DNA from: Lamellibrachia columna
Taxonomy: Eukaryota > Annelida > Polychaeta > Sabellida > Siboglinidae
Length of the DNA stretch: 64,000 nt
NCBI GenBank assembly: GCA_963662155.1
Contig: OY759273.1
Coordinates: 25,192,373-25,256,372 of the forward strand
Reading direction: 5' to 3'
Part shown: positions 53,201 to 56,200 of the stretch, in pieces
How the letters are laid out: each line of letters starts with the position of its first letter
How positions within the stretch are numbered: position 1 is the stretch's first letter
Notes under the pieces: generated by a model
Told to the model about the DNA's origin: nothing
What the model saw: only the letters and a program-made list of their open reading frames with translations
The model's database searches: none
Translations under genes and position numbers: made by a program

Positions 53201-56200
53201 AGATTAATAATAATTTCTGAAGCACCGCGATGTCTTTTTGTAATAAATAAATCAATAATACGTTCTTATATAGGGTGATATCCAGTCCTTGGGACTGCTC
53301 AAATAGCACCACCTGGCAGACGTTTTCATTCCAACACCATCTCAGCTTCTTTGGGAAGCATTCAGTCATGCTGCAATTACTGCATGAATATATTCACGTA
53401 TCCAACTCTATCTGTAGCCAGGATCTCATTTATACAGCTGGGTAAACTACAGCAAAGTGGTGTGAGCGAAATTGCCATGTCTTTGAAATTGCAGCAAGAG
53501 AACTCGCTTGATTGGAAGTCCAACATTCTAATTGCTGCGCCACCACGTCCCATATATGCCATACATTTTGGTTGTGCAGTGACTATGAAGCCTTGGAGAC
53601 AGCCCTGGCGTTCTGGCTGAACATGGCTAACGAACACCATCTGGATGGTGTCGTATCAATCCACGATAATGTAGTGCGACGTCTGACGGGAATCATCCAA
53701 GTACATCAAACCACAGCATTGAAGACCTCTGCTCTGAAAGCAGCTCTCTTGATGGTTCTGTGTGAACATATCGAGTCGATTCCTGGGGACATGAAGCTTA
53801 GTTTGATGAGGATATTACTTCAGGATGTCAACTCTGTGGATAATGTTCAGGTAAGAGGAAAACAAACTGTAAAAAGTGGCAAAATGTCCACTTTTATTGT
53901 TCGCTCATAGGTAACAATCCTTACGGATGGGCATATGTAACAACCCTTATGGATGGGCATGTGTAACAACCCTTACGAATGGGCAAATGTAACAACCCTT
54001 ACGGATGGGCATATGAGACATTCCTCATAGTTTTGTGAATTTTGAACAAGATTTTGTTATGAGATAGAACCCGCATTTGTCAAATGGTATGTAAATAATA
54101 GATCCTTAGTTCAAAACACATCCGAAGAGCGACTCTTTCAAATATTTTAGGTGCGTGCATTCATGCCAAATTCATGCATGATCAATCGATATATACCAGT
54201 TTGTACGGCGAGCTCCTTTTGACCATGCGCTGCAAAACGGCAGACATAAATAATCATTCAGGTTTGTTTGTGGAGGGTTTACAGATTTATATTACAGTTC
54301 TGTCTTACAGGTTTATGCTACTCAGTAGTAGTGCACTTTCCCTGTCAGGCAAGTAATCTAAAATAAAGGTTATTTTATTCATTTACTCATGTAGGGAATG
54401 TGGCCATTGTAGGTTACTGCAAGTCAGTGTTTGTTGGAAAATAGGTGCAGTCCCAGGCCAACAGGATAGCAGAATTAAATACTAAAATTTTACAAAATGC
54501 TTACAAATGACATTTCTGTATAGCCCAAAACACCAACAAATCTCCTGCATGATGACAATGTACTGGTACATATTGATTGACTAGTAGTAACCTGAATCTG
54601 AATAACAAAACACGTATATGAGTTGACACACACAATGTGAAAGCTGATTAAACATTGAAAATGACAATTATACATTGAATAAATAATAGTCTCACTTTGT
54701 CTTTCAACTGATCTCGAAGAATAAAATCTCCCATACAAAAATGCAAAAGTATTCTGATCAGTACAACTGAACAAATTGCTCCCAATCCCTGTTAATCTTG
54801 TGATCGCCTCTAACCAGGGTGGTTACGTATTACCGCAGGTTGAACACAATTAAATCTGCAGATGGCAGGCCATGCAGGTAGCTAACATGATGTCTTTTTA
54901 CAGCCAGAATATAAAATATTAAAACGTATTTCTCTGCAATGTCCGAATAAACCATCGTTGTGCATGAATATTATTTTTAATGTAAAAAGAGCTGTGAACT
55001 AAATTCGAAAACAATTATTTTGAAAAGGGTGCTTTTTTATACAGTAATATTATTACTGTTATCATTATGCAGTATTTTCTGTGTCATGTCTGAATATTAT
55101 GACACTAATATGCTAATGAAACAAGTTTTAATAAGTAGATTTAAAAATAAAAAAATTTAGTTAAATTCAGATACTCTGTTCTTGCGACAGGTAGAACAGT
55201 TTCTCGTCCAGACATTGTTGGCAGATGTCGCAACTCACTTGTCATCAGTGTCACTGACTACTGCGACGGTAACTGGTGACACGGACAACAGAACATCATC
55301 ACTGCCATCGTCACTTAGCCTGCTCATTGAGAAACTCCAGCAGTTGTGTTGCCAAGCAACAGGGATGATGCCGAATAACACAGTAAGTTCTGAATGTCTG
55401 TATTGTAAGGTTGTCAGTTCGTAGCAATAACCAGTTATCTCAAACATCATTGCTGTGCTGATCAACTCTCAATAACACAGTGTTGAATTTATTCAAAGTC
55501 AAGGTATCGGTATGTTGTTTATGGAACATGCAAGTGACACTGACAATACTTAGTCATGTAACAAGATTAAGTCATGGAATTTTATTTTACAAAAAGAGTG
55601 GGAACCCTGTTATATCATGACAGAAACAATTAGTCTCTTTCTCGTATTGATTGGCTCTGAAAAGAGCCATTTTTTTCTGGTCGCTACTCAATTATGCTGA
55701 CCTCGATCCTGAACCCATCAGTACGTGTAGCCTGAATTCTCAGAGCGTCGAGTTTGTCGCCGATTCTCTGCGCGTACTCGTAATACACATTGCGAACTCC
55801 CTCAACCACGCATAGTTTTATACGCTGATTATAATTATACACCCGGTTTCCGTTCTCGGCGGAACATTTGAAGCGCATTTCTAAATCGTTCAGTTGCTGG
55901 TTGAGCAGACGTACCTGCCAGCAAGCTTTCTCAAACTTGATTGTCACAGACTTGATCATGCTATCCAAGTTGGTCGAGTCCATGTTGTGGTGAAACATTC
56001 AATGTTGACTGGAGGGCGAATGAATCGGAATGAGGGATAGCAGAATGACGCAGGTTATATAAGCGCCTTGATTGACAGGTGGCAGAATCATTATAAGTGG
56101 TCATTATTTACATTGACCGCTGCCATGTATATGTGTCGACAAAATCATCATTCATATGTGTGTCTGTCAACATAATCACCATCTTGTCACAAGTGCATTG

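Follow-up and report, generated by a model that had tools for sequence, protein, structure and literature searches.

A candidate multi-copy non-histone gene family with a histone-type mRNA 3′ end, read from a small antisense intronic gene

Replication-dependent histone mRNAs are described, in an excerpt of PMC6303110, as the only known animal protein-coding mRNAs that end in a 3′ stem-loop and not in poly(A), and an excerpt of PMC12775136 states much the same. A short open reading frame (ORF) on the minus strand of a 64,000-nucleotide stretch of DNA (the window, to which all positions refer) raises the question of whether such an ending can also serve a protein that is not a histone. A sequence-only reading of this DNA had proposed exactly that, a non-histone protein whose gene carries the cis-elements typical of replication-dependent histones, and our analysis supports the proposal: the set of elements is complete and correctly ordered (Table 1), running on the minus strand from 56,061 to 55,636 as TATATAA, TCATTC, leader, ORF, 15 nt, GGCTCTTTTCAGAGCC, AATCA and CGAGAAAGA.

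Layout of the gene and its surroundings

Table 1. Features of the small gene and of the intron that holds it, in window positions
Feature	Position	Strand	Basis or remark
TATA box TATATAA	56055..56061	-	sequence; first T 78 nt upstream of the 55,983 ATG
Initiator-like TCATTC	56028..56033	-	sequence; predicted start at the A at 56,031
ORF, 99 codons plus TAG, intronless	55684..55983	-	relatives and AlphaFold model
Histone-type stem-loop GGCTCTTTTCAGAGCC	55653..55668	-	sequence; begins 15 nt past the stop
AATCA	55648..55652	-	sequence; predicted cleavage after CA, 5 nt beyond the stem-loop
Purine-rich CGAGAAAGA, candidate histone downstream element for U7 snRNA	55636..55644	-	8 nt beyond the stem-loop
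Host intron, 3.0 kb	55383..58390	+	GTAAGT at 55,383, AG at 58,390; small gene antisense inside

The intronless ORF of about 99 residues that had been read from the sequence was confirmed: a single frame stays open from ATG to stop (TAG at 55,684-55,686), and relatives align over it. Two in-frame ATGs are present, at 55,998 (104-aa frame) and at 55,983 (99 aa), and the latter is common to four of the five sequences in the alignment of closest relatives. A TATA box had been placed 72 bases before the ATG; the box is there, at a distance of 78 nt. The A of TCATTC, called by the initiator consensus, lies exactly 30 nt past the first T of TATATAA, implying a leader of 48 nt. On the other side of the ORF, the perfect stem-loop was found at precisely the spacing from the stop that had been claimed, and so was the U7-type purine-rich element beyond it. 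CGAGAAAGA agrees in 8 of 9 letters with CAAGAAAGA, the consensus of the histone downstream element, and would be able to pair with U7 snRNA. The predicted cleavage site follows the rule given in an excerpt of PMC6303110, which places the cut 5 nt past the hairpin, at CA. AATAAA also occurs downstream of the gene, at 55,586 and 55,493, so a polyadenylated form of its mRNA is possible.

The gene does lie antisense inside an intron, as the sequence-only reading had it, while the identity of the host as ATR fared less well. Three joined host exon pieces returned three ATR chains as their best PDB hits, at E = 0.46-0.47, giving weak support to ATR, and two other exon pieces had no ATR match. Since members of the family in Mya arenaria lie on what appear to be at least four different contigs, the location within an ATR-like gene may be a coincidence. 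The same intron contains two minisatellites, one with 11 copies of a 19-nt unit spaced mostly at 23 nt (57655-57900) and one in which a 44-nt stretch occurs three times, every 41 nt (56938-57063). Elsewhere in the window, a tandem array with a period of ~1.83 kb and copies ~93-98% identical extends over 6550-18804 (starts at 6550, 8382, 10193, 12024, 13858, 15669 and 17499). A ~9-kb stretch (1-9281) recurs 19.6 kb further on (19646-28891) at 95-97.5% identity, marking the left half of the window as a recent segmental duplication or an assembly artefact. A LINE-like retroelement occupies 38763-41448, with a reverse transcriptase at 39698-40189 (Pfam RVT_1, E = 5.7e-19), and a weak Rfam match to SCARNA7 on the minus strand at 53097-53260 (26.3 bits against a cut-off of 65, E = 0.027), which spans simple repeats, is probably due to chance.

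A multi-copy protein family with a predicted helical hairpin

A single-sequence search with the window protein found four relatives of 72-88% local identity, and the five sequences align with a mean column identity of 80%. Searching with the profile of these five yielded 324 candidates, 55 of them proteins with E <= 10; with a profile of 46 sequences there were 4407 candidates, 856 of them proteins with E <= 1, and the best 120 of the 856 were listed. Absence of homologues had been named among the outcomes that would speak against the sequence-only reading; homologues are numerous, and their conservation indicates that the window ORF codes for a real, conserved protein. The species named among the listed relatives are Mya arenaria, Dreissena polymorpha, Patella caerulea and Potamilus streckersoni, all Mollusca, most listed relatives carrying no species name. 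A quick tree was built from 137 rows, namely the window protein and 136 of the 145 proteins (eight that were fused or short and one without the motif were left out). In it the window protein belongs to a clade of six rows, apart from the large remainder, the deep forks being without resolution.

The family is present in many copies. Clusters at 90% identity are large, with 135 member sequences in P0021 and 102 in P0083. At least six listed clusters share a longest contig of 503,891 bases, and at least six listed Mya clusters, including the neighbouring locus tags MAR_017291 and MAR_017292, share one of 83,634,289 bases, each length presumably standing for one contig; a length of 87,805 bases likewise recurs among several members. 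Two or three family copies in a row, some incomplete, were seen in MAR_007173, MAR_017287, MAR_014607 and MAR_001626, on four contigs by the same reasoning. In the Mya arenaria models P0056-P0059, neighbouring family copies are fused into proteins of 192-284 aa, and these models are probably annotation errors over tandem copies. Together, the adjacent Mya locus tags and the fused models indicate tandem arrays, and histone genes likewise form tandem arrays. The 64-kb window contains no second copy of the window gene.

AlphaFold models made with the window sequence or with P0021 first agree on a pair of helices, each of 40-44 residues, with a tight turn between them and a disordered tail after them, at a mean pLDDT of 87.7. 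The predicted fold of the window protein is thus a helical hairpin, disordered in its tail, and not that of a histone. Pfam offers no family that reaches its cut-off for the window protein. Both results bear out the earlier description of a helical protein without histone-fold features. Besides the first M, seven residues are invariant in all 40 aligned rows (F17, C21, N28, Y51, E61, G62 and R64), and in the predicted hairpin C21-N28 should face E61-A71. Of 142 proteins counted, 136 are net acidic by at least 3 in the stretch that lies 30-45 residues past the EG-R motif; the tail of the window protein, unlike that of most relatives, is not strongly acidic. Basic stretches, KTKRQLKK in P0039 and SKSPAK in P0132 and P0141, are weak hints of a nuclear role.

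Comparison with databases gave no further assignment. The family profile had no match in a PDB sequence search, and fold searches gave many tied matches, to generic helical hairpins only. Matches in Pfam, NCBIfam and PHROG were weak and scattered and look like coiled-coil noise, the best of these being PHROG 31671, a family without an assigned function, with P0012 (E = 0.00022); the HP0838 lipoprotein matched 23 of 46 members, at best with E = 0.00073. For the label "mitochondrial fission protein ELM1", carried by some jgi rows, we found no support.

The histone-type hairpin in the window and among relatives

GGCTCTTTTCAGAGCC is the sole match with two or fewer mismatches in the 64-kb window, where shuffles lead one to expect 0.02. 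The Rfam model RF00032 recognises the stem-loop of the sequence-only reading at 55,628-55,673, with E = 1e-5 in a search of 1.2 kb and with 28.5 bits and E = 0.00054 over the whole window, where it is the only match at E <= 1. The score falls below the curated gathering score of 34, so that a default Rfam scan reports nothing; when aligned, the model agrees with the sequence in the 16-nt core and departs from it in the flanks. The folding energy of the hairpin is ordinary for its composition (z = -1.26; 19 of 200 shuffles were equally stable). It is the sequence and position of the hairpin, rather than its folding energy, that are telling.

Further, inferred hairpins came from the ends of protein records. 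Some database relatives are longer at the C-terminus than is usual in the family; several have W at the stop position and others continue after a frameshift. A W where a stop is expected reads as if TGA had been taken for tryptophan, and the extra C-terminal residues look like translated 3′ UTR. We determined which DNA letters the extension residues permit and compared these with the hairpin pattern GGCYCTTTYHAGRGCC, using the 18 of 145 proteins that contain the core motif and are extended by 18 residues or more. The pattern fitted without mismatch in seven extensions, with one mismatch in four and with two in one, so that 11 of 18 extensions had one mismatch or none, compared with 0 of 144 proteins in a control scan of core regions. 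In the 12 best reads, which are not independent but form about four related groups, none within the window's six-row clade, the hairpin lies at a distance of 6-14 codons from the start of the extension, and three reading frames are represented; per-protein shuffle values run from 0.0005 to 0.045. These hairpins are deduced from degenerate codons, in protein copies that may be miscalled, frameshifted or decayed.

First, among these reads, P0132, P0135, P0136 and P0144 allow the exact 16 letters of the window hairpin, P0144 in another frame than the other three; P0132 and P0144, whose longest contigs are equal in length, read GSFQS and ALFRA, respectively, at the hairpin. Second, CAAGAAAGA is best matched in the 12 reads at 9-14 nt beyond the hairpin; 1 of 1000 shuffles reached the summed fit, and for a fit to GAAAGA beyond the hairpin none of 1000 shuffles was as good. 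Third, an unpaired fourth stem position is forced in 7 of the 12 (P0060, P0063, P0071, P0073, P0112, P0142 and P0145), as a C-A mispair in six and as A-C in P0145. Lastly, the remaining extensions fitted poorly, with three mismatches in P0029, P0046, P0058 and P0059, five in P0007 and six in P0006. P0058, P0059, P0007 and P0006 look like fused models or genuine long tails and not like read-throughs, and for P0029 codons can be chosen so that all six pairs form, though with three departures from the hairpin of the window, which is permissive and no proof.

Given the hairpin in so many extensions and in none of the cores, the histone-type ending looks common to the whole family, despite the reads with an unpaired stem position. 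Whether homologues also end in a histone stem-loop had been left by the sequence-only reading as a matter to settle, and the codons answer it positively, if indirectly. A parallel idea, that P0005 contains a translated promoter, arose from its N-terminal extension, which allows TAYAAR 72 nt before the start, like the window's TATA box. It was dropped because, in a gapped comparison, 57 of 300 shuffles did as well.

Explanations, mechanism and relation to known systems

We consider it likely that the window gene is genuine, codes for a non-histone protein and has a histone-type 3′ end that works. The best reading of the sequences is a multi-copy non-histone family, mollusc wherever a relative's species is named, whose mRNAs would be made like replication-dependent histone mRNAs.

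Four other explanations were weighed. The histone 3′ end might have been acquired once and now be a relic or in mixed use, decaying here or in many copies, with mRNAs that are mainly polyadenylated. The forced unpaired position in 7 of 12 inferred hairpins, the two AATAAA signals and the RF00032 score under the cut-off are all compatible with such decay, but the window hairpin is perfect and its purine element stands at the usual spacing, and exact fits to the hairpin recur in four relatives, so we regard this explanation as unlikely. Alternatively, the gene could be mobile or selfish, derived from a virus or transposon that borrowed the histone-type ending for S-phase expression, as its intronic location and the many near-identical, dispersed copies (the clusters of 135 and 102, the several Mya contigs inferred) might suggest. 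However, no relatives were found in phage records, in IMG/VR or in prokaryote genomes, and the Mya locus tags and fused models indicate tandem arrays. Four short inverted repeats occur near the gene, two of which straddle it (12 nt at 92% and 18 nt at 78%), but all are too weak and short to be convincing terminal repeats of a mobile element, and we give this origin only a slim chance. A hairpin that stands by chance behind an ordinary gene is very improbable: the window offers a single DNA instance, of ordinary folding energy, but the number of matches expected there is far below one, the hairpin directly follows a conserved ORF and comes with a purine element, and it recurs in the read-throughs of relatives. 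That the protein is a highly diverged histone or linker histone is scarcely credible, for although the gene layout is identical and the clade with P0132 and P0141 begins with a basic stretch containing SKSPAK, no histone family is among the Pfam matches listed for 46 members (25 of 31 families, E <= 1), a single long helical hairpin is predicted as opposed to the three-helix histone fold, and the proteins are not uniformly basic (whole-protein pI 4.3 to 10.0 in the 15 computed).

If the window gene is a non-histone gene with a working histone-type end, its expression can be outlined from the cis-elements. RNA polymerase II would start at the TATA/initiator promoter and produce an unspliced transcript, whose hairpin would be bound by SLBP and whose purine-rich element would pair with the U7 snRNP. 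Cleavage of the pre-mRNA at the CA in AATCA, ~5 nt beyond the hairpin, would leave an mRNA of ~384 nt without poly(A), which might be made and destroyed with DNA synthesis or be stored in eggs. For its product the prediction is a stable hairpin of helices whose short, disordered tail is acidic in the majority of relatives, and the conserved patch in the middle of the hairpin (C21, N28, E61, G62, R64 and neighbours) suggests dimerisation or the binding of a partner. That the protein acts in the nucleus or on chromatin as a bulk factor, required in amounts that match newly made DNA, is a tentative proposal, weakly indicated and perhaps doubtful.

The histone-type ending itself is known; what is new is the protein family that carries it, as is the observation that certain relatives seem to have entered the databases as proteins translated on into the 3′ UTR. 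An excerpt of PMC6210712 describes a hairpin near the stop in all histone mRNAs of the clam Lucina pectinata and mentions no other gene with one. A literature search judged by titles or the starts of abstracts returned no report of this family, or of any animal non-histone gene with a histone hairpin, though prior reports may exist elsewhere. The mRNAs of the family would be absent from poly(A)-selected transcriptomes, which could explain how it escaped notice. On balance we favour the view that this is the first animal non-histone protein-coding family in which a histone stem-loop replaces poly(A): a multi-copy mollusc family within the SLBP/U7 system that would provide chromatin or cleavage-stage nuclei, beside the histones, with a bulk component coupled to replication. 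If true, a conserved non-histone family with a histone ending would break the histone-only rule, since histone mRNA is called the sole animal protein-coding mRNA of its kind (PMC6303110, in excerpt). It would also provide a natural test of whether the hairpin suffices to couple a protein to DNA replication, and would indicate a protein that molluscs require in step with histones.

Compared with replication-dependent histone genes, the window gene differs in that its protein, judged by Pfam and the helical-hairpin models, is not a histone and in that the 64-kb window has no other histone-hairpin match. It resembles them in being intronless, with a short ORF, a TATA box, a perfect hairpin just past the stop and a purine-rich downstream element, and in having multi-copy relatives. 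The two long antiparallel helices predicted for the protein are an arrangement also seen in solved structures such as prefoldin, the ING5 N-terminal domain, the seryl-tRNA synthetase arm and ESCRT-III.
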